Source: Flavobacterium sp.
Lineage (GTDB): Bacteria > Bacteroidota > Bacteroidia > Flavobacteriales > Flavobacteriaceae
Length of the DNA stretch: 64,000 nt
Direction: 5' to 3'
NCBI RefSeq assembly: GCF_017985075.1
Contig: NZ_JAGNYF010000001.1
Location: 90,724 to 154,723 of the forward strand
Shown here: positions 28,427 through 51,109 of the stretch, piece by piece
Numbering within the stretch: position 1 is the first letter of the stretch
Layout of the letters: each line of letters starts with the position of its first letter
Notes under the pieces: model-generated
Database searches by the model: none
Told to the model about the DNA's origin: nothing
Seen by the model: the letters and a program-made list of their open reading frames with translations, nothing else
Translations under genes and position numbers: made by a program

Positions 28427-29218
28427 ATGAAGAAATATTATTTATGGCTATTATTAATTGCGGTACTTCCGATTCACTCACAGATTTTAAATGTAGATAG
28501 AATTTCAGAGAATGACTCTGTTTTCAAAAAATGGACAGGATATACAGATGTATCATTTAGTTCTGATAAATTAAAAAAAAATGTACTTGATGGTAGTACA
28601 AAGTTTGAACTAAATCACTTTTTAAAAAATAATTATTTTTTTGTTTTTGCTTTGAACAATGATTTTACGCTAAATGGTAAAGACATGATTCAGAATGAGG
28701 GATTTATTCAAGTTCGTTTTAGAGACAAAGATTCAAGAGAATGGAGTAACGAATCATATGCACAATACCAATGGAATGGAGCTTTAGGTATGGAATATAG
28801 AAAAGTAATTGGTTCGAATGTTAGAAAACGTTTCTTTGAAAAAAAGAAGTTAGATTTATATGCTGGTTTAGGTGTTTTTCACGAATCGGAGCAATGGAAT
28901 TGGAGTGGCGTAACTAATTACGAACTATTAGAAACTACACCCACGCTTAATCGTGCCCTTTTTCGTTTAAATAATTATTGGAAAATGGCTTATAAAATTA
29001 ATGAGAATGTGGATATTTCAGCTATTTCTTATTTTCAATTACCTATGAATAGGGGTTTTCTTAATATGAGGTGGTTTATGGATATAAATACATACATTAA
29101 AATGTCTAAAAATTTGAGTTTTGTCATACATTATGACCATACAATAGATAATTACAGATTAGTACCTGTAGCAAACTTTTATTATTCGTTAAACTTTGGA
29201 ATTCAACTAAAATGGTAA
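28427..29218 (+). CDS. DUF481-like outer-membrane protein
   Basis: The 263-residue protein has a signal peptide (ends LPIHSQ, about residue 19). Its mature part is rich in alternating strands, with FELNHFLKNNYFFVFALNN and LDLYAGLGVFHESEQWNW and an aromatic C-terminal strand ending FGIQLKW. This matches small outer-membrane beta-barrels of the DUF481 type. It is the first gene of the operon and its stop lies within the start of the next gene. Whether it is an anchor, receptor or pore for the operon's other products is unknown. Confidence 0.72.
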   Translation: MKKYYLWLLLIAVLPIHSQILNVDRISENDSVFKKWTGYTDVSFSSDKLKKNVLDGSTKFELNHFLKNNYFFVFALNNDFTLNGKDMIQNEGFIQVRFRDKDSREWSNESYAQYQWNGALGMEYRKVIGSNVRKRFFEKKKLDLYAGLGVFHESEQWNWSGVTNYELLETTPTLNRALFRLNNYWKMAYKINENVDISAISYFQLPMNRGFLNMRWFMDINTYIKMSKNLSFVIHYDHTIDNYRLVPVANFYYSLNFGIQLKW

Positions 29219-30525
29219 CTATGAGCCAAGATTATACTCAGTATACAATAGATAATTATATCCTTAAAATTACTGGGGTATTTAATTATGATAAAGATTT
29301 TCAAAAGAAAGCTAATGAAGCTACTTATGAAGAGTTGCAGTTTTCTGAAGATTCAGAAAAATTCAGTAAAGATTTTTTTTATCCTGATTTAAGAAATCAA
29401 TTTTTTAATAATAATAAAAAAAGACATTCAATATTAGTTAAAAAAAATACTGAAAACTCAATTGTAGATTTATTTACTTATCAATTTGATGGAAAAACTA
29501 AATCCAAAGAAGTTCAGTTAAAAATAATTGATAGTCGATTGGATTTATTTGAAGAAGGATTTGGATTATTTACTTTAAATATAAAAATAGAAACTGAGAA
29601 AACAGATTTATCAAAATTTTCAGATGCGGCATTTTTAGCACGTAACTTTGAAACTAACATTGAACATTCACACTATGATAAATGGCATCAATATATTGAG
29701 AAAGAAATATTGGTTGGTGCTAGTACTAGAGGAAATTCAATTAAAGTTGATGAATATTCTGGTTCAAAGTACAAACTTTACATGATATTAGATATTCCTG
29801 AGCTTACCGAAAAAAATGAAATGAAATCGTTACTTTTTGATATTGGTACATTATCTAGAATAGGTTCTGCAATTGGAAATAACTATGATTCAATGGATAA
29901 AGATTATGTAAAGCAATTGACCAATAAAAATGCAATATCTATATTTAATAACTGGGAAGGATTGGCTTTACTTGACACCTATACCGTAGTTGGAAATAAA
30001 ATATTAGATACCGATTGGAAAAAAAGTACTTATTTAAACATTTACCATGGTATTTATCTTTATTGCTTATTTATTAAATATAATCTATTTAAATACAATT
30101 TTGAAATTGCCGATTTAGATGAAGACAGAAGGTCTAATTTTCAAGATTTTCTGGCTAAATATTACTTTAATTATATTTCGTATAATTTTTTACCAACCGA
30201 AATTTATAATAAAATTAGGACTTCACTTGATATAGAAAAAGAACTACAATTACTTAATGAGAAAATCGTTGCAGTAGGGCAAAAAATTCAAGAGGAACAA
30301 CAAGATAAAACCAATAAAATTTTAGGGATTGTTACCGTTCTTACCTCAGTATCTTCTGTACAGCCGGTTTATGATTATTTAATTGAAGGACAAAAAATAC
30401 TAGGATGGAGCTCAGAAATTTATTGGGTAACCACTATTTCAATTGTTCTAGTGCTTGGCGGAGGAGTTGGGTTTTATGTATTTGGAAAAAATATATTGAA
30501 GTGGATTAAAAAAAGGAATAAATAA
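29212..30525 (+). CDS. Membrane protein with large soluble domain, hypothetical
   Basis: The 437 residues begin at ATG 29212, overlapping the previous stop, or at ATG 29221 (MSQDYTQY), which is equally plausible. Residues 1-340 are soluble and helical, then come a coiled coil (about 340-370) and two hydrophobic segments (IVTVLTSVSSVQPVYDYL and YWVTTISIVLVLGGGVGFYV). A basic tail follows. The coiled coil-TM-TM layout resembles CorA-like proteins, but no GMN motif is seen. It is 3 bp before the next gene. Confidence 0.65.
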   Translation: MVTMSQDYTQYTIDNYILKITGVFNYDKDFQKKANEATYEELQFSEDSEKFSKDFFYPDLRNQFFNNNKKRHSILVKKNTENSIVDLFTYQFDGKTKSKEVQLKIIDSRLDLFEEGFGLFTLNIKIETEKTDLSKFSDAAFLARNFETNIEHSHYDKWHQYIEKEILVGASTRGNSIKVDEYSGSKYKLYMILDIPELTEKNEMKSLLFDIGTLSRIGSAIGNNYDSMDKDYVKQLTNKNAISIFNNWEGLALLDTYTVVGNKILDTDWKKSTYLNIYHGIYLYCLFIKYNLFKYNFEIADLDEDRRSNFQDFLAKYYFNYISYNFLPTEIYNKIRTSLDIEKELQLLNEKIVAVGQKIQEEQQDKTNKILGIVTVLTSVSSVQPVYDYLIEGQKILGWSSEIYWVTTISIVLVLGGGVGFYVFGKNILKWIKKRNK

Positions 30526-30528
30526 TAC

Positions 30529-32790
30529 ATGGAACAAATTACCTACTATAGCACTTTTCTTAAAGGTATTTTAGATGCCAATCCATGGATTTGGCATGCG
30601 CTTCAGGTATTTATGTTATTAACCTTTTTCCCTAATAAATTTTATTATACATTTCCAAAACCAATTTCAAAGTTTTTAAATTTTTTTGCAACGTACCACT
30701 ATATTTATTTAATATTATTCATTTTTAATAAAATAGAAATATGGGGCTTAATTGTTTATGTCCTAGTAATTATTATTGATAAATTATTTGAAAAATCAAA
30801 AGACGAAAAAAATATAGAAACTGGAGATTATTACATATTTACAGTAATGTGGTATAGTCTCAGAATATTATTAATTTGTTCAATTGTTTTTGCATTAAAA
30901 GGAGAGTTTTCTTTAAAATATAGATTAATTATATTATTAATTCATTTATATTATTTCTTTAATCATTTTTTTATTTATACAAGAACTAGGAAATACGAAA
31001 TTCAAGAAAATTTTGTGTCTACCGGTTATTTAAGGTTTTTTTCTCCTAAGTGGATTGGTTTGGTATTAATGCCTTTTTCATGGGCTTTATGGATACTTAT
31101 GATTATGAGTTTTTTTGACAAATCGGATGATGAAATACATCCAAAATTTGATTTGGCAAATAGAAACACATTAATAGATGACTGGAAAAACAATAGTAGT
31201 CATCATACACTTTATTTTATGTTAAATGTATGTGCTATAATTTTTTTAGGTTTTAGTATAGATGCATTTGTATTAATTGGATTAATAAATTTCATTTTAT
31301 ATTTCTATTATAATCGAAAATCTAATAATCCTTTAAAAGATTACATCAGTTTTTCTATAATTACGGGGAATCAAAATTATTTAAACAATCTTGTGATTTC
31401 AAAAAAAATTACCTTTTTGGTTCAAAGAATTTTGATTAAAATTACCGAGGACAGCACTTATGGTGTGTTAGTAAGTCCATATGAAAAAGTAGTTAATTTT
31501 AATAAAGTTCAACATATTGATGAAATATCTAAAGGAGCTCATCATTTGGTGTTAATTGATGGTGGAGATGAATCTGATAAAATTATTAGAATTGAAAATG
31601 ATTTCACAAATTTTTTAGGTCGAGTAGATACAGTAATTGACTATTTTTTTATTGCAAATCAAACTATAGATACATATTCAAAACCTATAGAAACCGAACA
31701 GGCAAATTGCATTAGAGAACGGATTGCTGTTAAACAAGCAATTATTGATGAAAAGGCATTTGTTTTAGATGATAATCCTGAAGAAGAAGCAAAAACAATT
31801 GATACATTTATCAATTCAATCAATACCGAATCGGTGCGAATTAATATGTTGGTTCGGGAATACTTTAAAGAAAATAAGACTGATTATGAGCAGTTGCAAT
31901 CGGAATTGATAAATAATGGACCTTTTGAAATTAATACCCTGTTAAGACAAATGCGCGAAGGTGGTTCGGTGCCTTCTCGATTTGTAGATGCGCTTTCTAT
32001 TGCCGAAATAGCAGCCAGGTATTTGTTTAGTTTAACAAATGAATTTAATAATTATTTAGAAAAAAACGAGAATAGTATTGAAGATCGAAACTCAAAATAT
32101 AGTCAATTATCCTTTGGACCATGTGTAGGTTTTTTAAGAACAATTAGCGAAAAAGGAAAACTAAATGCATTTGAGAAATCGATAAAAGTACTTCTAAAAA
32201 CAAAGTATACAGATAGTGATAATTTTGAAAGATTAAAAAAGTACTTAATTACAGATTTACATTACGACAAAAAAGTGTCTGATGAACCAATCCTATTCGA
32301 TTTATTTAATTATTTGGCTTATATTCGAAATAAAACAAGAGGTCATGGAACGCCAAGTAAAGTGGAATTTGAATTTTATGTAACCTTAGATTTAATCTCT
32401 ATATTTATAGTTCATTGTATTTCGAAAATCGAAATTGAAACCTTCAGCAGACAAATAATCAACGACAAAGAATGGTTGTTGTATTATAATGCTGGTGGAA
32501 ATGTTGTTTTACATCCGTTAGATACCAATGAAAATTTAGAATATTGGAAAGATTCTTTTGATTGGAAGTATCTAGACAAAATGGAGGAAGCTAAAAACAT
32601 TATTCAGAAAACTAATCAATCGGTCTATTTAAAGATTAAATATCAGGAAGAAATTCATTGGATTAAAGCAGAAACCTTTTTTAAATGTAAAGAAGGAATC
32701 ATTTACATGTATGACGGCATTAATAAAGACGAAGCCGAGTGGATAAGTTTTACAACTGGTGCTGTAATTAGACCATATAGAATTAATTAA
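30529..32790 (+). CDS. Polytopic membrane protein with HEPN-like cytoplasmic domain
   Basis: The 753-residue protein has about eight transmembrane segments in residues 10-270 and a soluble C-terminal part. At residues 600-606 it has RNKTRGH within YLAYIRNKTRGHGTP. This R-N-x4-H form fits the Rx4-6H motif of HEPN ribonucleases, and a very similar segment occurs in the STAND protein two genes downstream. The surrounding helical sequence (LSFGPCVGFLRTISEKG) also resembles that protein. A membrane-tethered HEPN-like effector or adaptor is inferred. No other motif is recognised. Confidence 0.62.
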   Translation: MEQITYYSTFLKGILDANPWIWHALQVFMLLTFFPNKFYYTFPKPISKFLNFFATYHYIYLILFIFNKIEIWGLIVYVLVIIIDKLFEKSKDEKNIETGDYYIFTVMWYSLRILLICSIVFALKGEFSLKYRLIILLIHLYYFFNHFFIYTRTRKYEIQENFVSTGYLRFFSPKWIGLVLMPFSWALWILMIMSFFDKSDDEIHPKFDLANRNTLIDDWKNNSSHHTLYFMLNVCAIIFLGFSIDAFVLIGLINFILYFYYNRKSNNPLKDYISFSIITGNQNYLNNLVISKKITFLVQRILIKITEDSTYGVLVSPYEKVVNFNKVQHIDEISKGAHHLVLIDGGDESDKIIRIENDFTNFLGRVDTVIDYFFIANQTIDTYSKPIETEQANCIRERIAVKQAIIDEKAFVLDDNPEEEAKTIDTFINSINTESVRINMLVREYFKENKTDYEQLQSELINNGPFEINTLLRQMREGGSVPSRFVDALSIAEIAARYLFSLTNEFNNYLEKNENSIEDRNSKYSQLSFGPCVGFLRTISEKGKLNAFEKSIKVLLKTKYTDSDNFERLKKYLITDLHYDKKVSDEPILFDLFNYLAYIRNKTRGHGTPSKVEFEFYVTLDLISIFIVHCISKIEIETFSRQIINDKEWLLYYNAGGNVVLHPLDTNENLEYWKDSFDWKYLDKMEEAKNIIQKTNQSVYLKIKYQEEIHWIKAETFFKCKEGIIYMYDGINKDEAEWISFTTGAVIRPYRIN

Positions 32791-32800: not shown

Positions 32801-33019
32801 ATGATAAAAAATTATAAAGTAATGCCTTTAGGTATTAAGATAGATGAGAAAGCTAGTGCGTCTGATGTAGCAAAAAAACTGCAAGATTTTATCAATGCAA
32901 ATTCTGGAAATAAGTCAGAATTTATAAAATTTGAAACTGTTCCCGTAAAAGTTATCAATAGTGTTGATGGTGCTCAAACTTCAAAAGAGTATACAGTTTG
33001 TATTTTTAAAGAGTTATAA
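32801..33019 (+). CDS. Small conserved hypothetical protein
   Basis: The product has 72 residues, is soluble and probably alpha/beta (VMPLGIKIDEKASASDVAKK, FIKFETVPVKVI, YTVCIFKEL). The pattern recalls DUF4177-like small proteins, without certainty. It sits 10 bp after the membrane protein and touches the STAND gene with no gap, so a 1:1 partner is likely. Confidence 0.55.
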   Translation: MIKNYKVMPLGIKIDEKASASDVAKKLQDFINANSGNKSEFIKFETVPVKVINSVDGAQTSKEYTVCIFKEL

Positions 33020-36000
33020 ATGAGTTTCAATTGTCAAACCCCATCTTGCGCTATTGCAATTTCTAAAGCTGAGTTTCCAGTAGCGATAAATTGTCCTGTA
33101 TGTCAAACACCACTTTCGGAAGTTGTTGATTCTTTATCACAAGAAGATATAGCTTTAATTGATTCACTTCCTTATGTTATTGCTTATCCATTACAACAGA
33201 CACTTTTAGAAAAAAACGCATCTCAACGGTTGAATTTTTTGAGAGATACTTTTTTGAATTACCTCAAATATTTAGGATTGCTGACCGCCTCTGAATTCTT
33301 CAATAGTCCTTTTAAAGATCGAAAAATAGTAGATTTATTTTTACAAAATTTAGCGCAACCTTCTTTCGGTTCTTGGAATGCTTTTACTAGAGAATGCTTA
33401 TTATATTTAAAAACTCAAAAGCATGTTTTTTTCTGTCCTGATTTATTGGAATATTATGATACCGTTGAAACAGGCAAAAAAAGAAAAATATATAATGGGG
33501 AAATAGAGGTAATTGATTCTTATAATGGTGGAGAAATTAAACAAATAAAGCAAACCGCTACTGGGATTGGTATGCTTATTAATTTTAGAAATCGCTATTT
33601 AGGTCATGGATTAACTTTGGATTCGGTAATTTCTGAAAACTTATGGAATGACTATTTTCCTATTTTTAGAACATTATTAGAGCAACTTACTTTTAGTGAA
33701 AAGTTTCCAATGTTGAAACAAGAAGCAACAGTTTATTTTTCCTTACAAGGAATCGAAATAAAACCATTTGAAACCAATATCACTATTGATTCTAATGTTT
33801 CTATTTACAATAGAGATACTAATGCAAGTATGCCTATTATCCCGTTTTTTATTATTCCTGGTGAATTAGCTATTGAAAGTTATGAAAAAGCCAATATTAT
33901 GTCTTATGAATCTAATAACGGTAAAACTATTACTTTTTTTAGTCCTGAAGGCATAATAAAGCAAACTTCGGGAAAACTATTAGAACGGCTTAATTTATTG
34001 TTGCGAGATAAACAAAAAGAAATTCCTTTTACTCCTGAAACTTTTACAAAAGAGGTATTTGTAGAACGCATCGCCGAAGAAAATAAATTAATGTTGAAAT
34101 CATTACTTAATGAAAAAAAAGTAATCGAAGGAATTTACCAATATCGGGAAGAGATGGAAATCAAATTGCGCGAATGGATTGGTGCTCGTGCCAATATCTT
34201 TTTTATTGCAGCTGAGGCTGGTAGTGGAAAAACCAATTTGTTAGTTGAAATGCAAAAGCAATATGTAGAACGTAATTTAACAAGTTTGTTAATTCGTGCT
34301 TCGCGCATGGAAAAATCCTCTTTAAAAGAAGAATTATGTTTCCAATTGAATATGGATTATTCTTTGGATATAGCAAGATATACTGCATTGGCCGGAACGC
34401 AATTCGAACCTTCTTTTATTTTGATAGATGGATTAAATGAATCCTCAAATGCAGAAGCTTTTTGGCAAGAAATTCTTGAAATTTCTAGTGCTTTCGAACC
34501 AGGATGTCTTAAGTTTGTTATTACTAACAGAGCCAATACAAGAACAGATTTAGACCGCTATGTTATTACCGAAGACCAAATGCAATATATCTATGGTGAA
34601 AACAAAGGTCATGAAGCCAGAATAAGTGCTTTTACTTTTTGGTTAACGCCTCTAGATATGAAGGAAATGGAGAGTGCATGGGATAGTTACGTTACAAAAG
34701 ATAAAAATCGTTTCAAACCATTATTTTCATTTAATGACATTGCCACTTTTGATAGAGGATTATACCTGCAAATTAACAACCCTTTGGTTTTGCGTATTTT
34801 CTTAGAAACGTATAAAGGTAAAAACCTTCCCAAAAAAGGCACGAAACACTTACACGTTTGGAAAGACTGGTTCGCAACCTTCTCAATTGAAGAACAAAAA
34901 TTTATGACTCTTTTAGCGGATGCTGTTTGGGAACAAGGCGAAAATGAATTGTTGTTGGATACGGTATTAAACAATAAAAACTTACAACTATATTTTCTAA
35001 ATGATACTACTAATGCTCCATATCAACGTTTATTAACTTTAGGTTGGATAAGCCGATATATAAAAGATTTAACAGTTTATGTGAGTTTTACCGTAGAAGG
35101 GCTTTTATTGTATTTATTAGGCACAAAATTAAACCAACTAAATCCGATACTTACAACAGTTGCAATTGATGAAATATTAGCAAAAGGAACCAAACTACAA
35201 AAATCTGCGATTGAATCTTTTTTATGCGAACAAGCCTTAGAAGGTAAAATTGATTTGATTGCACAATTAATAGATGAAGGAAAAGAAAAGTTAGACTTGT
35301 GTGTAACTCCTTTATTGTATTTTTTGAAGTCTCAAGGTGTAGAAAAAACTGTTGATAAGCTTTTAGAGAATCCTACCGAGAATGATTGGGTCTTATTAGA
35401 ATTATTAAGAAAAGAAATAAAAAAAAATCAACTGCATAATTTACAGATTCAATTTGACAAACATATTTATAAAATTGAAGGTATTGGCTTTTTTAGTCAA
35501 GACTTGATAAAATTATCTTGTTTAGAGTTATATGACGCTGAATTTAAACTTTCAGAAATTGAGAATATATTATTGCAGAAAACATTTTATAATTATCTCG
35601 AAATTGATAAAAAAAAATACCTATTTTACCTTATAGATTTAGTTTGTGTAATTTCACCTAAAACTGCAATTGAAATTTATAATGAATATTTAAAAAATCA
35701 AGTGAATGAATATATTTCACTAGAATATTTAAAGCTATTACAAAATATTGGGCAGGCATATTATAAATTGCCAAATAATATTGATTATGCTTTAGAAAAC
35801 TTTATTAAAGGTAACGAGTTATTAGGTGATAAAAAAGGGTTTGACTATCAAATTCAAAAATTAGAATTTTTAAATAGTATTGCTTGTTGTAAACTTCAAA
35901 AAAAGGAATTTATTGAAAGCGAAATTATTTTTAAAAATGCAATCGATTACACAAATAAATTTTTAGGACACAATCATTTTCTTTTTATAATGATTTATTC

Positions 36001-37156
36001 GAATTATGCAGAGTTATTACGATTACTGAATAGATTTAGTGAATCGGAAAAACTATTATTGAAATGCTTAGATATAGCCAAAGAAGTTGTTCCAAAAGAT
36101 AGTATATCTTTTATGAATATATATTCCAGTTTAGGGTGGAATTATATTGCACAAGTTAATTTTGAAAGTGCTATAGAATGTTTTAAAAAATGCATAGTTA
36201 TAAATAGTAAATTATTTGGTGAAAAAAGCATAAACACAGCAAATTCTTATAACAATTTAGGAGTTGCTTTTCAACACTATCAAAATTCAGAAAATGCTTT
36301 AGAAAATTATTTAAAAGCAACTGAAATATATAAGTTAAATAATTTTGAAAATCCAACGTCAATAGCTAATGTGGGTTCAATTTTTTTTGATAAAGAAGAA
36401 TATGAACTTGCTTTAAGTTATTTTGAGATGGCAAATCACATTCAGCCAAATAATTCTTTGACAATACGTAAAATGGGACTTGTTTACTTTGCCAAAAATG
36501 AAATTGAAAATGCATTAAAATTTTTTAATGAAAGTGAAAAAATATTACTAGAGATACAAAATGACTCAGCCAAATTAGAACTGGCATATTTATATTCAAA
36601 TTATGCTTTAATTTTTGAAGAGCTTGAAGATTTCAATAAGTGTATAGAATATTGCAATAAATGTATAGATATTTATTCAACTATATTTGATGACTTTCAT
36701 GAATATGTTAATTCAACCGTTTATAATCTGGGAAGGTATTATTATTTAAATGATGATTTTGAGAATGCTATTATTAACTATCAGAAATTACTCTTTATTC
36801 AATTAAAAAATTTAGGTACAGAGAATGATGAGGTGGCGACTTCAAATTTTAATATTGGTAATTGTTATATGGCTTTATTTGATTATGAAGAGGCATTAAA
36901 ATTTTATAAAAAAGCATTTGAAAAATTAAAAAAAGGAGGGGTTTCATTTCAAATAGCCAAATGTTACGAAGAACTCAATCAACCAAACGAATCACTAGAT
37001 TATTACATTCAATCAGCAGAAATTAGAAAAGATGACCAAGATATTGGTATAGAACACGAAGCAACTCAAGAAGCCATAACAAATGCAAATCGTTTAGCTA
37101 AAGAGCTAGGTAATGAAGATGAGTTACCCGATTGGATGAAATTATATAAACATTAA
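33020..37156 (+). CDS. STAND NTPase with zinc ribbon, HEPN-like and TPR domains
   Basis: This 1378-residue protein starts with a zinc ribbon (cysteines 5, 10, 25 and 28). A helical HEPN-like region includes RNRYLGHG (R190, H196). An NTPase core follows, with Walker A AEAGSGKT (about 399-406) and Walker B FILIDGLNE (about 467-475). The last about 450 residues form TPR repeats (for example NTANSYNNLGVAFQHYQNSE). This effector-STAND-sensor order is that of bacterial immune NTPases of the Avs/NLR type, where target binding by the repeats activates an N-terminal effector. By analogy the effector would cut RNA. It is the largest gene of the operon and is followed after 16 bp by the LRR gene. Confidence 0.75.
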   Translation: MSFNCQTPSCAIAISKAEFPVAINCPVCQTPLSEVVDSLSQEDIALIDSLPYVIAYPLQQTLLEKNASQRLNFLRDTFLNYLKYLGLLTASEFFNSPFKDRKIVDLFLQNLAQPSFGSWNAFTRECLLYLKTQKHVFFCPDLLEYYDTVETGKKRKIYNGEIEVIDSYNGGEIKQIKQTATGIGMLINFRNRYLGHGLTLDSVISENLWNDYFPIFRTLLEQLTFSEKFPMLKQEATVYFSLQGIEIKPFETNITIDSNVSIYNRDTNASMPIIPFFIIPGELAIESYEKANIMSYESNNGKTITFFSPEGIIKQTSGKLLERLNLLLRDKQKEIPFTPETFTKEVFVERIAEENKLMLKSLLNEKKVIEGIYQYREEMEIKLREWIGARANIFFIAAEAGSGKTNLLVEMQKQYVERNLTSLLIRASRMEKSSLKEELCFQLNMDYSLDIARYTALAGTQFEPSFILIDGLNESSNAEAFWQEILEISSAFEPGCLKFVITNRANTRTDLDRYVITEDQMQYIYGENKGHEARISAFTFWLTPLDMKEMESAWDSYVTKDKNRFKPLFSFNDIATFDRGLYLQINNPLVLRIFLETYKGKNLPKKGTKHLHVWKDWFATFSIEEQKFMTLLADAVWEQGENELLLDTVLNNKNLQLYFLNDTTNAPYQRLLTLGWISRYIKDLTVYVSFTVEGLLLYLLGTKLNQLNPILTTVAIDEILAKGTKLQKSAIESFLCEQALEGKIDLIAQLIDEGKEKLDLCVTPLLYFLKSQGVEKTVDKLLENPTENDWVLLELLRKEIKKNQLHNLQIQFDKHIYKIEGIGFFSQDLIKLSCLELYDAEFKLSEIENILLQKTFYNYLEIDKKKYLFYLIDLVCVISPKTAIEIYNEYLKNQVNEYISLEYLKLLQNIGQAYYKLPNNIDYALENFIKGNELLGDKKGFDYQIQKLEFLNSIACCKLQKKEFIESEIIFKNAIDYTNKFLGHNHFLFIMIYSNYAELLRLLNRFSESEKLLLKCLDIAKEVVPKDSISFMNIYSSLGWNYIAQVNFESAIECFKKCIVINSKLFGEKSINTANSYNNLGVAFQHYQNSENALENYLKATEIYKLNNFENPTSIANVGSIFFDKEEYELALSYFEMANHIQPNNSLTIRKMGLVYFAKNEIENALKFFNESEKILLEIQNDSAKLELAYLYSNYALIFEELEDFNKCIEYCNKCIDIYSTIFDDFHEYVNSTVYNLGRYYYLNDDFENAIINYQKLLFIQLKNLGTENDEVATSNFNIGNCYMALFDYEEALKFYKKAFEKLKKGGVSFQIAKCYEELNQPNESLDYYIQSAEIRKDDQDIGIEHEATQEAITNANRLAKELGNEDELPDWMKLYKH

Positions 37157-42941: not shown

Positions 42942-43433
42942 TTACCAACTAGTCGAAAAAGGCCAATAAATCGAATTTAGTTGTTCTAAAATCTTAATTG
43001 GAAATTTTGGTGTAGTATAAAATGTAGTGTCCTTTATTTCTTCATTTTCAAAGTTTAAAATAAAACAATCTTCCTCGTCGCTATACAGAAGATATTTATT
43101 AATTATTGTTTGAAATTCTTTAAAAACTTCCTTATCCATTTCGTCAAGTTCTATTGAAACTTCATTGATTTCTTCATTGAAATGTTCGTACTCCCAATCT
43201 GTAGGAAAAGAAGAATAGGCTCTATTAATTTTGGAGGTATTAGGGTTGGAACCATACTTTACATAAGAACATTCTTCTTGACAACCTCCACCAGAATAAC
43301 CAATCACAACAACATAGTGACGAAAGGAATTTGAATCTGGTAAAAATTTTCTTTTATAACCTGCAAAAATTCTTAAATTTCGAATGGATTGATTTTCTAT
43401 ACAATCATTTGAATATTGAATTAGAAATTCCAT
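42942..43433 (-). CDS. Hypothetical acidic protein
   Basis: This 163-residue soluble protein is not recognised. It is acidic with conserved-looking aromatic stretches (WEYEHFNEEINEVSIELDE). Cysteines occur as CQEECSY. It lies 9 bp after the next upstream gene in the minus operon, suggesting a cytoplasmic partner of the membrane components. Confidence 0.5.
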   Translation of the reverse strand: MEFLIQYSNDCIENQSIRNLRIFAGYKRKFLPDSNSFRHYVVVIGYSGGGCQEECSYVKYGSNPNTSKINRAYSSFPTDWEYEHFNEEINEVSIELDEMDKEVFKEFQTIINKYLLYSDEEDCFILNFENEEIKDTTFYTTPKFPIKILEQLNSIYWPFSTSW

Positions 43434-43442: not shown

Positions 43443-43793
43443 TTAAATATTAGATAGGTAAGAATCCTGTTTGCCAACTTCTTGTTCGATCCATTCTGAA
43501 TCTTCATCATACCAATATCCTTTTCTTATATGGGTTGAATGGTCATAAACTATTACATATAATTCTGTTTCATTTGCAAAATCATATAATTCATCCCAAA
43601 ACGAAAAATCATTTAATGATAAATCTTTGTAGTAAAACAACAAAGAATATCCAGCTTCTGGATCTGATTCATCTTCATTTACAATTGTTGTTTTATCGGG
43701 AGTGCCTATAGTACCCTCAATAAATTCTGTACATTGTGTTTCTAAATCTTCTTGGCCTGGCCAAAAAATATTAAAGTCAAGTGTAATTGCCAT
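43443..43793 (-). CDS. Small acidic hypothetical protein
   Basis: The 116 residues are strongly acidic and aromatic (ESDPEAGYSLLFYYKDL), with no signal or membrane segment. Such small acidic proteins are often immunity or inhibitor-like partners, but nothing proves that here. It lies 36 bp after the DUF350-like gene and 9 bp before the gene at 43433. Confidence 0.5.
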   Translation of the reverse strand: MAITLDFNIFWPGQEDLETQCTEFIEGTIGTPDKTTIVNEDESDPEAGYSLLFYYKDLSLNDFSFWDELYDFANETELYVIVYDHSTHIRKGYWYDEDSEWIEQEVGKQDSYLSNI

Positions 43794-43829: not shown

Positions 43830-44336
43830 TTAATAAAACTTAGGTATTGCAGGGTAAGGAATAAGTGTTTCGCAAAGCGCCCCTACGTATTCATCAACTA
43901 TTATTGATAAGCCTAAAATTATTGCTATTGTAATCAATGATATTCCTATATTGTTTTTTCGAATTTCTTCTCCTTCATTTACTTTGGTAAGTTGAAACAA
44001 TACTAATAATCCCGAGCCAATCACTAAAATGGTACAAAAAAGTCCAATCAACACAAACATCGTTATGTATCCAAAAGAACTAATTATTGATTGTGATGTA
44101 AAATTATTATCAGGATTTAAAAAACGCATGGCATTTAATGCAGGACTTATAATTGCAGATAATATAAAAGCACCCGAAATTACTATTCCAGTTTGAAAAA
44201 TGGCAAATGATGTGTTTTCTTCTTCTATTTTGTAAAAACGTTTCATTAAAAATGTAATTACTTTAAAAAGTATAAATAACGAGCCAATACCTATCCCAAA
44301 GGCTAATAAAAATTGAATAATACTAATAGTCTTCAT
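43830..44336 (-). CDS. DUF350-family membrane protein
   Basis: Four transmembrane helices span the 168 residues. Two internal halves resemble each other: EEENTSFAIFQTGIVISGAF and NEGEEIRKNNIGISLITIAI. This is the DUF350 (YjfL/UPF0719) pattern, a polar E-[x]-G/N before a helix repeated twice. Its role is unknown, but DUF350 genes are often near envelope and conflict genes. It follows the transglutaminase gene after 8 bp. Confidence 0.72.
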   Translation of the reverse strand: MKTISIIQFLLAFGIGIGSLFILFKVITFLMKRFYKIEEENTSFAIFQTGIVISGAFILSAIISPALNAMRFLNPDNNFTSQSIISSFGYITMFVLIGLFCTILVIGSGLLVLFQLTKVNEGEEIRKNNIGISLITIAIILGLSIIVDEYVGALCETLIPYPAIPKFY

Positions 44337-44344: not shown

Positions 44345-45937
44345 TTATTTAAAATTGTTAAAATATAATGCGATATCCCAATTTGACATATCTCTTTGTT
44401 GAGGTGAAATAACACCTAAACGAAATCCTTTACTTGTTAATTCTACTCCGTAATGATTTAATCCATTAACGCTTTTAGATACTCCATTTCCAACAGGAAG
44501 TCCAACGCCTAAGATACTATGCCCATAAGCTTGACTAACCCATACAGAAGCAGAGATATTCATTTTCTTTAATATTGCATATCCCAAAAGACTTCTAGTA
44601 TCACAATCGCCTTTTAAGTTGTGTAAAAATTCATAAGGTGATTGTACGCCTCCAGGAATATTAGGTAAACAAGGTTTTTTATCTTGATGGTAAGTTACAA
44701 TAAAAGAATCTTCTTTATCTGAATGCATTACCTGTTCGCAACTATTTTGATGTACCAATACATAAGGGATTTCTTGAATAAAAGCAACTACCATTTCAGC
44801 GGTTTGAATTTGGTTTAACTTTTTATCCGTTGCTTTTTTAACCAAAACCTTTACTATAGAGTCGATTTTTTTATTATCAAATTCTTCAAGATTACTATAT
44901 AATTTATTAAAATAGGAAATTGGGTTTTTTGATGTTTTACTATATAGATTATCAACTTTACTATGATTTTTTTGAGTTTCAAAAAACGATTTTACAGTTG
45001 TAATATATTTTAACCCATACTTATTTGTAATGAAATCATACCAATTTATTTCTTTTTCAATTTCATAATCCGGGTCATCAAAGTTGGAATCATCCGTTTT
45101 TACTTGTTTTGGAGGACTTATTTTAATTGTACCATCTTTTTTTGGAATAGTGGGATCTATCAGCGAACCTTTATTTGAAAACAAGGTTGCTAAAAACATC
45201 AAAAATACAGCGCCAAAAATTAAATTAAATGCTGTTTTTAAAAATCTATTGGTTAAAAATCTTGATATTAACCAACCAATAGCTCCAAAAAGCGCAAAAT
45301 AGAAATATTGATGTAAAAATAACCAAAAGAAACTTAAAAGAAACAACCAAAAAAAGATACCAAAAATCTTAGATAACCAATTTCTAGAAACAGTTGGAAA
45401 TGTGGTTGAAATAGTACTTGGTGCTACATTTATTTTTTCAATAGAATTTACTACATCTTCTACAAATGTAGAAGTATATTCTATTGTAGCATTATCTTCA
45501 ATTTTTTCAGATCGATTTGTGCCAATTGTTAAAGTAGGTGTTACGATAGGTTTAATTACAGGTTGTTTAATCTTAAAATATATAGTACCAGTTAACTCAA
45601 TAAAATCTTTTTTTATGTAACCTTGGCCAGTACCATCCATTTTGAAATCTTTAACAATCACTTCATGTAATTCACCTTCAAAGAAATGTTCTTCAGTAAC
45701 AGGTATAAAGATATCTGGCGAATTTCTTCTCCAAAAATTTTTAGAATTTATTTGTTTATTATAATAAAAATCTCCAATTTTTTCTTTTTCAACATCATAT
45801 TCATTTATAGCTACAATATCTGTAATTTTAATATATGACCAATTAAAATTATAAAAGTTATGTTTCCCTAGACTAAGAACTAAATCTTTAGTATTAGAAA
45901 TACCAGTAAAATTACCTTTAAAACATTTGTAGTTCAT
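44345..45937 (-). CDS. Membrane protein with transglutaminase-like cysteine protease domain
   Basis: The 530-residue protein has an N-terminal strand-rich domain (about 1-130), three transmembrane helices (about 190-260) and a C-terminal transglutaminase-like domain (about 320-525). That domain shows the catalytic Cys445 in KGDCDTRSLLGY and His473 in QAYGHSILGV. This papain-like fold could cleave or crosslink proteins or peptides. The N-terminal domain resembles the start of the OmpA-like neighbour. It starts 7 bp after that gene in the minus operon. Confidence 0.72.
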   Translation of the reverse strand: MNYKCFKGNFTGISNTKDLVLSLGKHNFYNFNWSYIKITDIVAINEYDVEKEKIGDFYYNKQINSKNFWRRNSPDIFIPVTEEHFFEGELHEVIVKDFKMDGTGQGYIKKDFIELTGTIYFKIKQPVIKPIVTPTLTIGTNRSEKIEDNATIEYTSTFVEDVVNSIEKINVAPSTISTTFPTVSRNWLSKIFGIFFWLFLLSFFWLFLHQYFYFALFGAIGWLISRFLTNRFLKTAFNLIFGAVFLMFLATLFSNKGSLIDPTIPKKDGTIKISPPKQVKTDDSNFDDPDYEIEKEINWYDFITNKYGLKYITTVKSFFETQKNHSKVDNLYSKTSKNPISYFNKLYSNLEEFDNKKIDSIVKVLVKKATDKKLNQIQTAEMVVAFIQEIPYVLVHQNSCEQVMHSDKEDSFIVTYHQDKKPCLPNIPGGVQSPYEFLHNLKGDCDTRSLLGYAILKKMNISASVWVSQAYGHSILGVGLPVGNGVSKSVNGLNHYGVELTSKGFRLGVISPQQRDMSNWDIALYFNNFK

Positions 45938-45944: not shown

Positions 45945-47264
45945 TTAATTTTTTCTAGTTCTTTTATTTGTCTCTTTTACTTTTTCAGTTTCAGAAAGTC
46001 GAAGTTCAACACGACGATTCATAGCTCTGCCTTCAGGTGTGTCATTTGAAGTTTTTGGTTCCGACTCGCCTTTACCAATTGCTTTGATTCTATTTCCATC
46101 AACTCCTCCTTTTATTAGGTACTGACGAACACTTTCTGCGCGTGCTTGTGAAAGTTGTTGATTAACCTGGTCATCACCTAAATTATCTGTATGTCCGATA
46201 ATTTCAGCTTTTACATCTTTATTTTCTAATAAGTGTTTTGTTAATTTATTTAATTCTTCTTTAGATGAATCCAATAACTTCGCTTTTGCTTGTTCAAATT
46301 GAACATTTGGCAAGCTTACTACACTTACTTTAGTCTTTGTAGTTTTATCTTCGTAAATGATAGTATCATTTTTGATAATGGTATCAATTTTAGCTTTATT
46401 CACTTCAATATAAACCGTATCATGAATTACTTTCGTATCAGTTATAGTTTGTTGTCTATTTTCATTACATTTTCCTAATAGTAAACACCATATTAACCAA
46501 AATAAAAATCCTAAGGCTAGTAAAAGGGATAAACATCCACATCCAAACTGAGAACAACCGCTACTGGTGCAACCAGTTGGTAACATTGAATTAAAACAAC
46601 CCGCATTTGTAGGTGCATCATTAATTAAATTCTTTTTAAAAACTTTAGAGGAAAAACTATTAATTAAGCTTTTTATTTTAGAGTTTATACCAAAAATTAA
46701 ATTGACCAAAGGTTGGAAAATAGTCACTAACCATTTCATGCAGCCACTATTTTCTGATAAATTTATTTCAGAATCATTAAGCTTATTTAGGAAACTGTCT
46801 GGTTTTTTAATAATTTCATTATTATTTTCATCAAATTGTTTTATTACTTTGCAATACGCTATCCCACTTATTTTTCCATGTTGATTCCCTGGTTGTGTGG
46901 ATAAAAAGTTTTGTCCTTTTAAATTATTATTATTTAAAGTTGCTTCAAAATCACTAATAAATAAATTTTCATTTTCGTCTTTTAGGATTAATAAGATTTC
47001 AGATGCGAAATATCGAGCATCTTTTTCCGTTTTAGATTTAAAAAAGCATTCTATAGGATATAATTCTCCAAGTTGATGAATAAATGAGGCTGAATCAGGA
47101 AGTTCAGAAATAGGAAAAATTGCTGCCTTTTCCACTTCAGTTAATCTAAATCGCTCTTCTAATTTAATTCTAGAAAACTTATAAGTAGAACTAAGTGATT
47201 GTTTATCTGCATCAACGAATTGACACTCTAAATGTCCCTTGTATATGGTAATTTCTTCTCTCAA
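45945..47264 (-). CDS. Transmembrane protein with C-terminal OmpA domain
   Basis: The 439-residue protein has a soluble N-terminal domain (about 1-165), one transmembrane helix (CGCLSLLLALGFLFWLIWCL, about 245-264) and a C-terminal OmpA/MotB peptidoglycan-binding domain. The last contains AEIIGHTDNLGDDQVN, LSQARAESVRQYL and MNRRVELRL. It probably links the inner membrane to the cell wall. The N-terminal part seems related to that of the transglutaminase protein. The gene is 1 bp from the next upstream gene. Confidence 0.82.
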   Translation of the reverse strand: MREEITIYKGHLECQFVDADKQSLSSTYKFSRIKLEERFRLTEVEKAAIFPISELPDSASFIHQLGELYPIECFFKSKTEKDARYFASEILLILKDENENLFISDFEATLNNNNLKGQNFLSTQPGNQHGKISGIAYCKVIKQFDENNNEIIKKPDSFLNKLNDSEINLSENSGCMKWLVTIFQPLVNLIFGINSKIKSLINSFSSKVFKKNLINDAPTNAGCFNSMLPTGCTSSGCSQFGCGCLSLLLALGFLFWLIWCLLLGKCNENRQQTITDTKVIHDTVYIEVNKAKIDTIIKNDTIIYEDKTTKTKVSVVSLPNVQFEQAKAKLLDSSKEELNKLTKHLLENKDVKAEIIGHTDNLGDDQVNQQLSQARAESVRQYLIKGGVDGNRIKAIGKGESEPKTSNDTPEGRAMNRRVELRLSETEKVKETNKRTRKN

Positions 47265-47265: not shown

Positions 47266-48423
47266 TTATTTGGTGCTAAAACTATTAATAAATTCTATCG
47301 ATGATAGTTTTTTTGAAGGGGTTTTATATTCTTTCATTTTAGAATTGAAAGGAGGGTCAGTGTAATAAGAATTAGTAATTAATGACTCATAATAATTTAC
47401 TGTTGTAATGCCAAAAAAGTTGGAATTGTATTTTTTTTGCAGTGTTTTTTTTATTTGTATTTCATTTGTTTTATAATCCTCTAAAGCCAATTCGTAATAA
47501 TATTTGTTTGCTAAAATATAATAATTATTTGTAGGATGAAGTAACTTGTACTTTTGAACATGACTTAAAATAAATAAAAAACTAACCAAAATAAGAGCAA
47601 ACCAAAAAATAGGTTTATTTTCAATAAATCTGTATGAATATATAATGAAATTTTTGTTGGCTATATTTTTTTCATATTGAAAAATAACATTTTGTTTTTC
47701 TTCATCCCATTCTGCTACTAGTTGCTTTTGTAGTAACAACTCCTCTTTTAGCTCAGCAGTATAAAGTGCATTTTGGTTCAAAGCATTTTTCTGTTTCAAT
47801 TTATTAATTTTCAAATCTAACGAATTGCTTTTACTAGTAAAATTAGCATTCTGATTTTCCTTAAATCTTGCAATTAATTGAATTCTTTTCTCATTATTAA
47901 TTTTATCTATTGCATCCTGATTTATAAAACAAGCAAATGGCAATACAATAAATAATATTAAGATTCCATTTATTAGCATGCGTATAAATAATTCAAAAGA
48001 AAAAAAATGGAACACTTTAAATAATGCATTCTTAACATTAGTAAGAAATGTTGATGAAGTGTTTAATGCTAAATCTGAATTTTCAGTTGGGGTACTAATT
48101 AAATTTTGTTTATCAGTGATATTAGTTTCTATTACTGGTTCATAATAAATTGGATTTTGAATAGTAAATATTGAAAATCGAAAAATATTAATTAGTATGA
48201 GTGAAAACAATGTCCCAACGACAATTGCCATGATTAAATTATTTAACAATAACATAAAAAACTCATACATCCCTAAAAATGTAATAACAGAAAGTATTAG
48301 AATAAATATTGTTACTCTATAAAATTTTTGTTTTTCTAAAGTGTCAATTTTATTCCAAATAAATTCTTCAATGCCAAAAAAAGCAAAAGTGAAATAATTT
48401 AATATTTTGGTTACATCAAGCAT
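47266..48423 (-). CDS. DUF4407-like membrane protein with coiled coil
   Basis: The 385-residue protein has two or three N-terminal transmembrane helices, one at about 143-165, a long coiled coil (about 170-250) and a helix at about 262-282. This is the layout of DUF4407 proteins, including the one encoded just upstream, although residue identity is low. I infer a diverged paralogue forming a pair with it. It lies 21 bp from the DUF4407 gene. Confidence 0.6.
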   Translation of the reverse strand: MLDVTKILNYFTFAFFGIEEFIWNKIDTLEKQKFYRVTIFILILSVITFLGMYEFFMLLLNNLIMAIVVGTLFSLILINIFRFSIFTIQNPIYYEPVIETNITDKQNLISTPTENSDLALNTSSTFLTNVKNALFKVFHFFSFELFIRMLINGILILFIVLPFACFINQDAIDKINNEKRIQLIARFKENQNANFTSKSNSLDLKINKLKQKNALNQNALYTAELKEELLLQKQLVAEWDEEKQNVIFQYEKNIANKNFIIYSYRFIENKPIFWFALILVSFLFILSHVQKYKLLHPTNNYYILANKYYYELALEDYKTNEIQIKKTLQKKYNSNFFGITTVNYYESLITNSYYTDPPFNSKMKEYKTPSKKLSSIEFINSFSTK

Positions 48424-48444: not shown

Positions 48445-49713
48445 TTATTTTTCTTGATTTAAGAATGCATCCGGATTATCATTAATCTCTTCCATTTTTT
48501 TCTCGCCCCATTTACTTACAATTTGAGAAGTAATTTTTTTCTGTTCTTCTAGTTTAGCTTCTCTTTCGTGTTTTGCTAATTCAACATCAGCATAACGATA
48601 TTTTTCCATATGAATTAAACCATTACGTCCTTCATATAATTTGTCCTCTTTAAAAACACCATTTTCTGTTTGAATTTTATGATTAAAATTTTCAACCATA
48701 TAATCATATGGCCCCTTTGACATCATCATTTTGAAGAAAATAGGTCCCATTTCGATGCAAAGAAGAATAGCGGTAATTGCTAAACCTAACCAAAATCCAA
48801 TCTCATGACTAATGTCTAATCTTGCTAATAAACCATCAAGCTTTCTAGCTTTCTCTTTGTTTTTTACATTTAATTCATAATTTTGATCTTTTAGTAGTTG
48901 AGCACGATCTGATTTTAATGAACTTAATTGAAATTTATTTTTTTTATCAAACTCAATAATACTTTTCTTTTTATCATCCCATATAATCTTTAGTCGTTTT
49001 GCGATTGGTCCGTCTCCAATTTTTCCGCCTGAACGGCCTTCCATTTGGTCAGTGTACTTTTTGTCAGCATTTCTTTCAATTTCAACTAATGAACTTCTTT
49101 CTTTTTCTATTTTGTTTAGTTCATTATCTAAAAATGATATTTGCTTTTCATATTTTGCACGAGTTAGTAAGTCATACTGTTCTCTCTTTTTTTGTTGCTT
49201 AATTCCTAATTCCACATCAATTTCAGATTTTAGCATTAATATTTCAAGGGGTTTTGAAATGGAAAACCCTAAAACAAGAGCTATTAGAATTCTTGGAATA
49301 GCTTGTGCAAATTCAGGTCCTGTTATTTTGTCTGTTCCATCACCTTTTCCAGTACTTGAAACAATAAAACGGTCTAAATTAAATATTAAAATTCCCCAAA
49401 TTACGGCAAAAATTGAACTAATAATCCAAAAATTCTCCTGTATTCCAGTAAGTTTTGTATGGGTTTCTCCATCTAATGTTTTTGGACCGAACATAGTATC
49501 AACAGCAATAAATCCTGAAACTCCAGCTAAAAGTCCTGTAAAAAAAACAATAGCTCCAATACCTGCATATTTTACTCTATCTTGTTTTGGTGATTGTTTT
49601 AAGAAAAATTCATCTGCTCCAGCACACCACCATAAAAATTTAGTAATTCTTGATGGATTACTATTGATATTCATGTATTCATTGGTATCCATAATATTTT
49701 GATTGGTATTCAT
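48445..49713 (-). CDS. DUF4407 membrane protein
   Basis: The 422-residue protein has the DUF4407 start (RITKFLWWCAGADEFFLKQ). Transmembrane helices lie at about 45-65, 92-112 and 140-158. A long Lys/Glu-rich coiled coil spans about 170-290 and a further helix about 300-320. The C-terminal part is cytoplasmic. DUF4407 proteins are common in Bacteroidota and occur beside OmpA-like and MoxR/vWA genes, but their function is not known. The coiled coil may span the periplasm or form a scaffold. Confidence 0.88.
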   Translation of the reverse strand: MNTNQNIMDTNEYMNINSNPSRITKFLWWCAGADEFFLKQSPKQDRVKYAGIGAIVFFTGLLAGVSGFIAVDTMFGPKTLDGETHTKLTGIQENFWIISSIFAVIWGILIFNLDRFIVSSTGKGDGTDKITGPEFAQAIPRILIALVLGFSISKPLEILMLKSEIDVELGIKQQKKREQYDLLTRAKYEKQISFLDNELNKIEKERSSLVEIERNADKKYTDQMEGRSGGKIGDGPIAKRLKIIWDDKKKSIIEFDKKNKFQLSSLKSDRAQLLKDQNYELNVKNKEKARKLDGLLARLDISHEIGFWLGLAITAILLCIEMGPIFFKMMMSKGPYDYMVENFNHKIQTENGVFKEDKLYEGRNGLIHMEKYRYADVELAKHEREAKLEEQKKITSQIVSKWGEKKMEEINDNPDAFLNQEK

Positions 49714-49734: not shown

Positions 49735-50376
49735 TTAATAGTATTTTAATAATTCTTTAGTATTTATACTGCAAATTGGTTGTTTAATTTTGGCATCTAT
49801 TTGTAAATTATTTATCTCAGTAATATTTAATTTAATGTACAAAGGTCTAATAGCCTCTAATGTTTGGTTGTCAATTTTTACTTTGTCAGGAACTATTACA
49901 ACTTTAGGTGATTCAATTCTATCTTCGATAACATCCACATTATTTATGTTTAATTTCAATTTTTTGACTTTAATTCCTAAACCAAAACCTATGAAAAGGA
50001 ATCCAGGATGTTGGTAGTTTGCTGAGGTTTGAAGTGTCGAATTGTTTTTTTTTATTTTAATTTGATTGTCCCAAATACTATTTCTTTTTCGATTATATTT
50101 ATAGGCAGTGCCAGGATATTCAAAAGTTGTAGCTAAAATAGATTTGTTTTTAAATCCAGGAAAACTTTTAAGGATTAAAAAATTATAAAAATAAATAAAA
50201 GGTGCAGTATAAAAGGTTCCAGTAAGAAATTTATGAAGCCATAATTTTGTATGAGTTTCCTTATACCTAACTATTGTAAACAAACAGTAAGGCATGTGAA
50301 ATTTAATTTGCAAATCCTGTCCATGAATTAAATATTCATAGTTTTCGGAATTGTTAATTTCAAATTTTATACTCAT
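49735..50376 (-). CDS. Hypothetical beta-rich protein
   Basis: This 213-residue protein has no signal peptide, a short hydrophobic stretch around residues 50-70 (FYTAPFIYFYNFLILK) and mostly beta-strand segments. No family is recognised. It lies 21 bp before the DUF4407 gene and belongs to the minus operon. Confidence 0.5.
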   Translation of the reverse strand: MSIKFEINNSENYEYLIHGQDLQIKFHMPYCLFTIVRYKETHTKLWLHKFLTGTFYTAPFIYFYNFLILKSFPGFKNKSILATTFEYPGTAYKYNRKRNSIWDNQIKIKKNNSTLQTSANYQHPGFLFIGFGLGIKVKKLKLNINNVDVIEDRIESPKVVIVPDKVKIDNQTLEAIRPLYIKLNITEINNLQIDAKIKQPICSINTKELLKYY

Positions 50377-50427: not shown

Positions 50428-50853
50428 TTATTTTGCAATATAAACATCCAAAGTTGCTTCACCAGCTTCGATTTCTAATTGGTCTTTTGCATCAGGATTA
50501 ACCTTGTACCAAATGGTTCCTGGTAGCGGTATGAAATCTTTTTTAAGTGCGTCAGCGTACAAAGTTTTAAAAACAACCACACCCGCACTTGGGTCTCCAT
50601 CACCTAAATCCACATTTCGTTTATCTGGTTTGGTAATGGTGCCTTGAAGAATGTATATGGGTTGCCCACTTTGATGGTATTCGTTTTTATTTGCATAACA
50701 TAATAAGGTAATTTTAGTTTTATGTACAATTGAGGTATAAAACCACCCGTATTCATAAAAATGACTGATTTTGTAATCTAAATCATTTTGAGTTTGGCCA
50801 TGATTATTTAAGGTAAATAGCATAAAGAAAAGGATGCCTAGGATTTTTTTCAT
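50428..50853 (-). CDS. Secreted hypothetical protein
   Basis: A signal peptide (ending NNHGQ, about residue 19) marks this 141-residue protein as exported. The mature protein is rich in strands and Asp. It starts 52 bp after an interrupted small membrane gene and precedes the next gene by 51 bp. No family is recognised. Its position suggests a periplasmic partner of the DUF4407/OmpA assembly. Confidence 0.6.
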   Translation of the reverse strand: MKKILGILFFMLFTLNNHGQTQNDLDYKISHFYEYGWFYTSIVHKTKITLLCYANKNEYHQSGQPIYILQGTITKPDKRNVDLGDGDPSAGVVVFKTLYADALKKDFIPLPGTIWYKVNPDAKDQLEIEAGEATLDVYIAK

Positions 50854-50905
50854 TTTATTTAGTAGTTAGATTAATTTAATTTTTTAAATTATTATGTACA
50901 ATAAA

Positions 50906-51109
50906 TCAATTATCATATTTATAAAAATAGGATACAATTACTGTAACCATTACAAGAGGCCAACACATTGTACATCCCCAAATTTATAATAATGTTAAAC
51001 GAGCAGTAGTTTTAGTTCGGTAACAAATAAAATCTAATAATGCTGCAATTACAATACCTATTGATAAGTAGGGAATTGAAAAAATTGTATTTATAATACT
51101 TACTATCAT
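50906..51109 (-). pseudogene. Small two-helix membrane protein interrupted by an in-frame stop
   Basis: From ATG 51109 the minus strand encodes 41 residues with a hydrophobic helix, ending in TAA (50986-50984). The same frame continues with a second hydrophobic segment containing CTMCWPLVMVTVIVSY and a natural stop at 50906-50908. Without the TAA it would be a 67-residue protein with two helices, like the small protein at 54999-55190. Its promoter carries the regulon palindrome. The stop may be a point mutation, or the first 41 residues may suffice. Confidence 0.6.

Follow-up and report, generated by a model that had tools for sequence, protein, structure and literature searches.

A candidate bipartite conflict system in Flavobacterium: a MoxR-vWA/HEPN-STAND operon beside a DUF4407/OmpA envelope operon

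Introduction

Four ternary conflict types built around a MoxR-family AAA+ ATPase and a von Willebrand factor A (vWA) protein, namely VMAP, iSTAND, FtsH, and beta-propeller, are named in Kaur et al. 2020 (PMC7159879), where the MoxR-vWA pairs already known are described as assembling complexes or bringing them to maturity. The same work reports iSTAND systems in Bacteroidetes, some with OmpA and membrane segments, together with varied peptidases. According to PMC7159879 and PMC8195603, iSTAND2 and TERNS3 are further ternary types that combine MoxR-vWA with a third component. Here we describe a 64,000-nucleotide stretch of Flavobacterium sp. (the window; contig NZ_JAGNYF010000001.1, positions 90,724 to 154,723) that carries two convergent operons. 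The plus-strand operon (p1-p7) encodes MoxR, a vWA-metallopeptidase, a leucine-rich-repeat (LRR) protein, and two proteins with HEPN motifs, one of them of the STAND type, whereas the minus-strand operon (m1-m10) encodes DUF4407, OmpA-domain, transglutaminase-like, and DUF350 membrane proteins. By gene content, the predicted two-operon system belongs to the broad class of MoxR-vWA-centered conflict systems; a literature search found no description of it. We propose that the two operons probably constitute one bipartite, mobile, abortive-infection-type conflict system, in which sensing at the envelope would lead to killing in the cytosol.

Results

Co-occurrence of MoxR with the envelope operon

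Relatives of the window MoxR protein were sought by comparing a three-protein profile with genome contigs, and the best 80 of 203 relatives were kept (loci and genomes are denoted by L and G numbers). The original prediction had tentatively placed MoxR and DUF4407 in one system, and a neighborhood search agreed with it: DUF4407 was encoded within 10 kb of MoxR(-vWA) at five of 80 loci (L036, L038, L071, L079, and L101), all of which fall among the 36 loci with at least 8 kb on both sides, and the two were on one contig in G455. Three of these loci are from Flavobacteriia (L036, L038, and L071) and two from the betaproteobacterium Polynucleobacter (L079 and L101). The envelope operon began on the same strand 306 bp after the vWA gene in L036 and 111 bp after it in L101. 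In L036 and L038, the same-strand set that followed MoxR-vWA comprised two proteins with one transmembrane (TM) segment (counted by hydropathy window), DUF4407, two related TM proteins (in L036 the first with an OmpA domain and the second without), a 4-TM DUF4407-like protein, a transglutaminase-like protein, and a weakly DUF350-like protein, the last being within L036 and, for L038, on the adjoining stretch; two opposite-strand genes lay between MoxR-vWA and this set in L038. A similar set stood just upstream of MoxR in L071, where the vWA gene was inverted and the sole OmpA-cluster protein aligned without the OmpA part. In L079 and L101, the vWA gene was followed by genes for a TM-OmpA protein, a 215-aa protein, DUF4407, a membrane caspase-like protein, and a DUF4407-like protein, and no transglutaminase relative was found in these Polynucleobacter loci. 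Across these arrangements orientation changes, while the proximity of MoxR and the envelope set stays.

In the genome-level search (L048 left out; L041 and L065 being one genome), envelope-type DUF4407, defined by a cut-off of ∼1e-85 that was set after the scores were seen, was present in 11 of 78 MoxR-bearing genomes (10/48 plus 1/30) versus 3 of 394 other sampled Bacteroidota (Fisher 3e-7). Without the five profile-source genomes the counts were 6/73 versus 3/394 (Fisher 7e-4). In both tests related genomes count as independent observations, and the MoxR-bearing set, which spans several phyla, is set against one drawn from Bacteroidota. Ten genomes of the 30-genome batch matched DUF4407 at 1e-30, and one alone passed the envelope-type cut-off. 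On a tree of 73 MoxR proteins, where the label covered 11 rows (L111, whose genome gave the weakest hit, was left out), we counted 4 label changes versus a shuffled mean of 10.4, with 0 of 500 shuffles as low; the association of MoxR with the envelope module is concentrated in a few MoxR lineages. The genomes of L037, L050, and L039 (G453, G460, and G461) carried the envelope operon and MoxR on different contigs. Genes resembling TPR histidine kinases and response regulators (named by eye) were also seen near the DUF4407 operons of G309, G126, and G431 (L147-L150 and L153).

Plus-operon homologs beside envelope genes

Homologs of plus-operon genes were encoded next to envelope genes in other genomes. 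In G099, whose envelope operon was 45% (m8), 40% (m6), 35% (m5), and 47% (m4) identical to that of the window, homologs of p1 (39%) and p2 adjoined this operon on the other strand, the p2 homolog being 1.3 kb from DUF4407, and two proteins with HEPN-like motifs were encoded downstream, one matching NPHP3_N (STAND-type NTPase, 6e-13) and the other giving a weak HEPN match (7e-3). Two envelope operons of G455, one L071-like and one window-like, adjoined a p2 homolog, with HEPN-STAND and MoxR-LRR-vWA genes ∼30 to 45 kb from them on the same contig. The MoxR contig of G456, a genome in which no DUF4407 was found, held transglutaminase, DUF350, p2, and p4 homologs within 8 kb of each other. One contig of G457 held homologs of p1, p2, m3, and p4 at 3 to 17 kb and DUF4407 plus MoxR at ∼44 to 51 kb; one of its two m3 homologs adjoined the p1 and p4 homologs, and a distant m1 homolog (21%, 2e-4) adjoined those of p1/p2. 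In G451 (the genome of L035), p1-p7 homologs were on contig 24, and m4-m9 homologs were on contig 26 along with a serine recombinase. The p1 homologs of G451 (66%) and G457 (38%) were near p2 homologs. At E ≤ 1e-8, G099 was the one genome with p2 among 394 other sampled Bacteroidota, and four of the 10 MoxR-locus genomes tested also had it; three of these five homologs were beside envelope genes, a fourth was ∼39 kb away on the same contig, and the fifth was on another contig. To judge from these sequence relationships, the cytosolic and envelope modules recur together and share components, and the presence of plus-operon homologs beside envelope genes elsewhere makes chance hitchhiking a poor explanation.

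Other genes were noted in these neighborhoods. Five loci (L038:12920-13471 and those in G099, G451, G460, and G457) had a thioesterase-like gene (∼181–213 aa, by eye) close to either the envelope operon or p2. Large proteins of one family, whose N-termini resemble LEPSYLRYIYDGL (L146:7620-10742, L185, and L168), were encoded near envelope operons (G099, G451, and G457/L071); the one member scanned gave no Pfam match. In L162 (G458, Polynucleobacter), the envelope operon was followed by two large proteins that are related to the STAND proteins of L047, L056, and L066 and that share an FLSSTF/FISSTF start, which we take to be DUF4062.

Neighbors of the MoxR family

MoxR of the main cluster was present at 71 loci, with a vWA-metallopeptidase within three genes at 49 of them. 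The commoner neighbor of MoxR-vWA in this family was an LRR protein, not DUF4407: counted from clusters plus a crude pattern, an LRR gene was within three genes of MoxR at 36 of 71 loci (LRR and vWA both at 31), and by the same crude test 3 of 290 genes more than five genes from MoxR encoded LRR proteins. The remaining neighbors varied across the 80 loci and included a HEPN-STAND protein like p4 (L035, L046, and L055) and a 1,417 to 1,452-aa protein with a reverse transcriptase (RT) domain (L036-L039 and L050; YSDD in 5/5), for which the L036 member matched RVT_1 (1.7e-15) and the retron RT_III-A model (1.4e-73).

The latter genes (L036:4357-8715 and those of L037, L038, L039, and L050) join a retron-type RT to ∼1,100 further residues in the same operon as LRR, MoxR, and vWA, and such RT-LRR-MoxR-vWA operons are possibly an undescribed retron-linked system. 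In L101, the one locus scanned for this gene, an ATP-dependent ligase-like protein was identified (L101:7169-9925; PF01068, 3.8e-7), and a ligase-like gene and/or its conserved companions were near MoxR-vWA in L079, L047, L053, L054, L056-L058, L062, L083, and L101.

Gene content and motifs of the two operons

Both operons are tightly packed, with neighbors that overlap or are 0 to 51 bp apart (Table 1). The ten minus-strand genes run from 42280-42915 to 50428-50853, and the convergent stops are separated by 10 bp (42270-42279), as originally predicted. Pfam scans covered 17 of 18 operon genes, the 72-aa open reading frame (ORF) p3b being left out, and a PADLOC scan covered ten operon proteins. 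The predicted coordinates and contents were borne out for the LRR, MoxR, vWA-metallopeptidase, and HEPN-motif STAND-TPR genes and, by Pfam, for DUF4407, OmpA, and DUF350. The transglutaminase assignment of m5 gained an invariant Cys and His in all four aligned sequences (window plus three relatives), although its Pfam match was weak. The predicted extent, 28427 to 51109, was right at its start but ended 256 bp past the last gene, with no further ORF of at least 60 aa listed there. Additions to the prediction were the p3 HEPN-type motif, the CorA-like match of p2, the (weakly) barrel-like protein p1, and p3b.

The HEPN superfamily motif is R-[N/H/D]-x4-6-H, and an R-N-x4-H motif was present in both p3 and p4 (RNRYLGHG at residue 190 of p4). 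It was retained in all four p3 cluster members (window, two copies in L035, and L036), the L035 copies being in tandem with one cut by the locus start (L035:2-3031). For p4, Walker A (AEAGSGKT) and Walker B (ILIDGL) were intact in 4/4 relatives examined, window included. In a loose cluster of ten p4-like proteins, four had the HEPN motif (window, L035, L046, and L055), and the other six, which had been grouped through NTPase/TPR similarity, lacked it. The motif was also present in the G456 and G457 homologs; a profile of the p4 HEPN region found 0 of 394 other sampled Bacteroidota genomes. Walker A and DDxNRA were conserved in 73/73 clustered MoxR members, window included, and the best PDB match of p6 was the Midasin AAA (7e-15). 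Among clustered vWA proteins of at least 330 aa, HExxH was found in 52/55 and the metal ion-dependent adhesion site (MIDAS) motif DxSxS in 54/55. Beyond DUF2201_N and DUF2201, p7 gave a weak Pfam match to PhageMetallopep and none other, and its vWA match ended at residue 404/405, leaving no C-terminal effector domain. The PADLOC ZorB model matched m6 (1e-11), a match that the OmpA domain by itself could account for. Homologs of m4 were 83% (G451), 54% (G456), and 51% (G455) identical; m7 had a homolog in the same operon position of G451 (42%), and m9 matched G099 weakly (32% over 60 aa). No homologs of p3b, m2, or m10 were found among the compared loci.

In the one pair of genomes compared for divergence (window versus L035/G451), MoxR and the LRR protein were 91% and 80% identical. 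The p4 NTPase (residues 301–700) was 61 to 78% identical, its HEPN region was intermediate (39–60%), and residues 801 to 1300 (mostly TPR) were 20 to 32% identical; p3 was 30 to 39% identical in its membrane part (residues 1–300) and 84 to 91% in its HEPN part (residues 401–753). The long helix of m8 (residues 201–300) was 34% identical. Divergence is thus much greater in the p4 TPRs and the p3 membrane part than in the p3 HEPN part, MoxR, and the NTPase, a pattern that we take as a sign of conflict.

Genomic setting

The window is Flavobacterium-like chromosome up to ∼17.7 kb (gldKLMN-type genes and groEL; named by eye). A serine recombinase gene overlaps a tRNA-Met gene there, and GC per 2 kb goes from 0.29–0.36 before this point to 0.23–0.34 after it. 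The remainder, which includes both operons, looks like a mobile island. The MoxR gene had no match in 36 of 36 same-genus genomes (within a set of 60) and matches in 6 of 395 sampled Bacteroidota, its own genome counted; of the other five, two were strong (G079, of the same genus, and G095) and three weak. The island also carries two IetA-like AAA genes (23981-25633 and 59542-61197; PADLOC 8e-25 and 4.5e-29).

Table 1. Positions of the genes of both operons and of the island boundary in the window
Feature	Description	Position	Strand	Match or motif
tRNA-Met	tRNA-Met gene	17695-17768		
Recombinase	Serine recombinase gene	17727-19364	minus	Overlaps tRNA-Met gene
p1	Secreted protein, possible outer-membrane barrel (weak)	28427-29218	plus	Pfam DUF481 E=0.0028, below cut-off
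p2	CorA-like protein with C-terminal membrane segment	29212-30525	plus	PADLOC CorA models 1.5e-13, 4.6e-11
p3	Multi-pass membrane N-terminus, C-terminal HEPN motif	30529-32790	plus	RNKTRGHG, residue 600
p3b	72-aa ORF between p3 and p4	32801-33019	plus	
p4	Cys-rich N-terminus, HEPN motif, STAND-type NTPase, TPR repeats	33020-37156	plus	TPR_12 1.7e-45, NPHP3_N 1.5e-3
p5	Leucine-rich-repeat protein, 907 aa	37173-39896	plus	Pfam LRR_EndoS 9.3e-9
p6	MoxR-family AAA+ ATPase	39893-41050	plus	AAA_5 2.1e-5
p7	Zinc metallopeptidase motif HELLH and vWA domain	41052-42269	plus	DUF2201_N 3.9e-17, DUF2201 8.2e-18
m1	Small membrane protein	42280-42915	minus	ORF
m2		42942-43433	minus	ORF
m3		43443-43793	minus	Two homologs in G457 (42%, 34%)
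m4	DUF350 membrane protein	43830-44336	minus	Pfam 2.2e-11
m5	Membrane-anchored transglutaminase-like protein	44345-45937	minus	DUF553 2e-3 (weak)
m6	TM segment, C-terminal OmpA peptidoglycan-binding domain	45945-47264	minus	OmpA 6.9e-23
m7	Second, divergent DUF4407-like membrane protein	47266-48423	minus	Pfam 1.9e-3 (weak)
m8	DUF4407 membrane/long-helix protein	48445-49713	minus	Pfam 4.7e-57
m9	Conserved upstream of m8	49735-50376	minus	46% in G451
m10	141-aa protein with signal-like start	50428-50853	minus	ORF

Discussion

The two operons are best read as an envelope sensor resembling Zorya that is coupled to an abortive-infection module of the LRR-MoxR-vWA/HEPN-STAND kind, a reading in which we infer both the defense function and the direction of the signal. 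The DUF4407/OmpA complex would be an inner-membrane assembly with a peptidoglycan anchor and would respond to injection by a phage or to damage of the envelope. From there the signal may pass to the cytosolic STAND/LRR receptors, possibly with processing by the transglutaminase. The MoxR-vWA pair could set the threshold, acting as a chaperone and protease by which these receptors are first held and then released. Once activated, the HEPN domains would cut RNA and the CorA-like protein would serve as a putative membrane effector; the predicted outcome is growth arrest or cell death. Envelope sensing with cytosolic killing is favored for two reasons: the envelope module is retained across differing cytosolic modules, and candidate toxins are already at hand in the HEPN proteins.

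Several observations weigh against this proposal. No envelope-type DUF4407 was obtained from 67 of 78 MoxR-bearing genomes, and G099, G309, and G126 carry DUF4407-transglutaminase operons with no MoxR match in the genome at 1e-10 and none within 19 kb; no OmpA relative was seen in the envelope operons of G309 and G126. Part of the clustering on the MoxR tree comes from relatedness among Flavobacteriales, and a long-branch warning attaches to this tree. The structure model of the p4 N-terminus (predicted local distance difference test score, pLDDT, of 66) had no significant fold match and did not confirm a HEPN fold, and that of DUF4407 was unusable (pLDDT 59.5). Co-residence on an island could also mimic a functional link. 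The predicted linkage of the two operons thus stands insofar as they recur together and plus-gene homologs adjoin envelope genes (G099, G455, and G456), but it is modular rather than obligatory. The envelope operons and MoxR-bearing genomes that lack the other partner are what one would expect of two independent accessory systems, a MoxR-vWA/HEPN-STAND defense and an envelope maintenance or stress module, sharing islands by chance; we judge this improbable given codirectional adjacency in two phyla, the shared p1/p2 components, and the enrichment of envelope-type DUF4407. The occurrence of the envelope module without MoxR marks it as an exchangeable partner.

The signal might also flow in reverse through the same bipartite system, with detection of phage components by the LRR/STAND receptors in the cytosol, licensing by MoxR-vWA, and, as the killing step, rupture of the envelope by the envelope complex (transglutaminase, DUF4407, CorA-like, and DUF481-like proteins). 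Such a direction would suit an envelope module that is common to different cytosolic modules (retron-type RT, ligase-like, and STAND) and the caspase-like membrane protein encoded at the loci without a transglutaminase relative, given that such systems exchange their effectors. We nevertheless regard it as rather unlikely, since the HEPN-motif proteins already provide a likely toxin, the OmpA anchor suits sensing as well as killing, and the TPR kinase/response regulator-like genes that flank DUF4407 operons (G309, G126, and G431) suit a sensor. If MoxR-vWA had no part in conflict and acted purely as the assembly chaperone of the envelope complex, this would accord with what known pairs do according to PMC7159879, but such a role appears very improbable beside the HEPN-motif proteins, the mobile island, the sporadic distribution, the fast-diverging regions, and the envelope operons that exist without MoxR.

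Returning to envelope sensing with cytosolic killing, we tentatively raise the possibility of a new immune architecture, in which an exchangeable envelope-spanning DUF4407/OmpA/peptidase device plugs into differing cytosolic receptor-effector modules as a common periplasm-to-cytosol infection alarm. The modules in question would be HEPN-STAND with LRR-MoxR-vWA, retron-type RT with LRR-MoxR-vWA, ligase-like proteins with MoxR-vWA, and HEPN/STAND proteins alone. If the bipartite reading is correct, chaperone-gated NLR-like receptors and envelope-anchored sensors are joined in one genetic unit, DUF4407 and DUF350, for which we found no stated role, gain a testable function, and an LRR-MoxR-vWA core shares operons with retron-type RTs as well as with HEPN-STAND proteins.

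Comparison with known systems

The p4 protein shares an N-terminal effector, an NTPase, and a repeat sensor with STAND/NLR-like defense proteins (Avs and kin), from which it differs in its HEPN motif, Cys-rich start, and MoxR-vWA-LRR companions. With the MoxR-vWA-centric conflict systems, as described in PMC7159879, the window system shares a MoxR AAA+ with Walker A/B, an adjacent vWA with MIDAS, architectural variability (80 loci), and fast-evolving sensor/effector parts (one pairwise comparison); those systems have a variable effector C-terminal to vWA, which the window vWA protein lacks. The likeness to ternary conflict systems that the original prediction pointed out holds, but the window system fits none of the four types named there. 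Of these, iSTAND likewise combines MoxR AAA+, a vWA protein, and a STAND-type partner. In iSTAND, however, the STAND protein is catalytically inactive, whereas the p4 Walker motifs are intact, and the vWA protein tends to have a 4-helical CoxE-type N-terminus, whereas that of p7 is a DUF2201_N metallopeptidase with HExxH; the window STAND protein additionally has a HEPN motif, an LRR partner, and a separate multi-gene envelope operon. For the remaining types, the 17 of 18 operon genes scanned gave no match to VMAP-C (PF20028) at E ≤ 0.1, to FtsH AAA+ by Pfam, or to a beta-propeller, none being present on p7 either; a whole-genome search for VMAP-C found none, and no control genome matched either.

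With Zorya (treated in PMC11890865), the predicted envelope complex shares a membrane assembly with an OmpA-type peptidoglycan anchor and cytosolic effectors, whereas DUF4407, the transglutaminase, MoxR-vWA, and LRR set the window system apart. Neither m7 nor m8 matched ZorA in PADLOC at E ≤ 0.01, although these models were not seen matching a true ZorA, and besides the match of m6 to ZorB no Zorya protein was matched among the ten proteins scanned. We do not file the system as Zorya, because a widespread domain alone could explain the ZorB match of m6 and the PADLOC scan gave none to ZorA; it may work like Zorya in outline, without membership.

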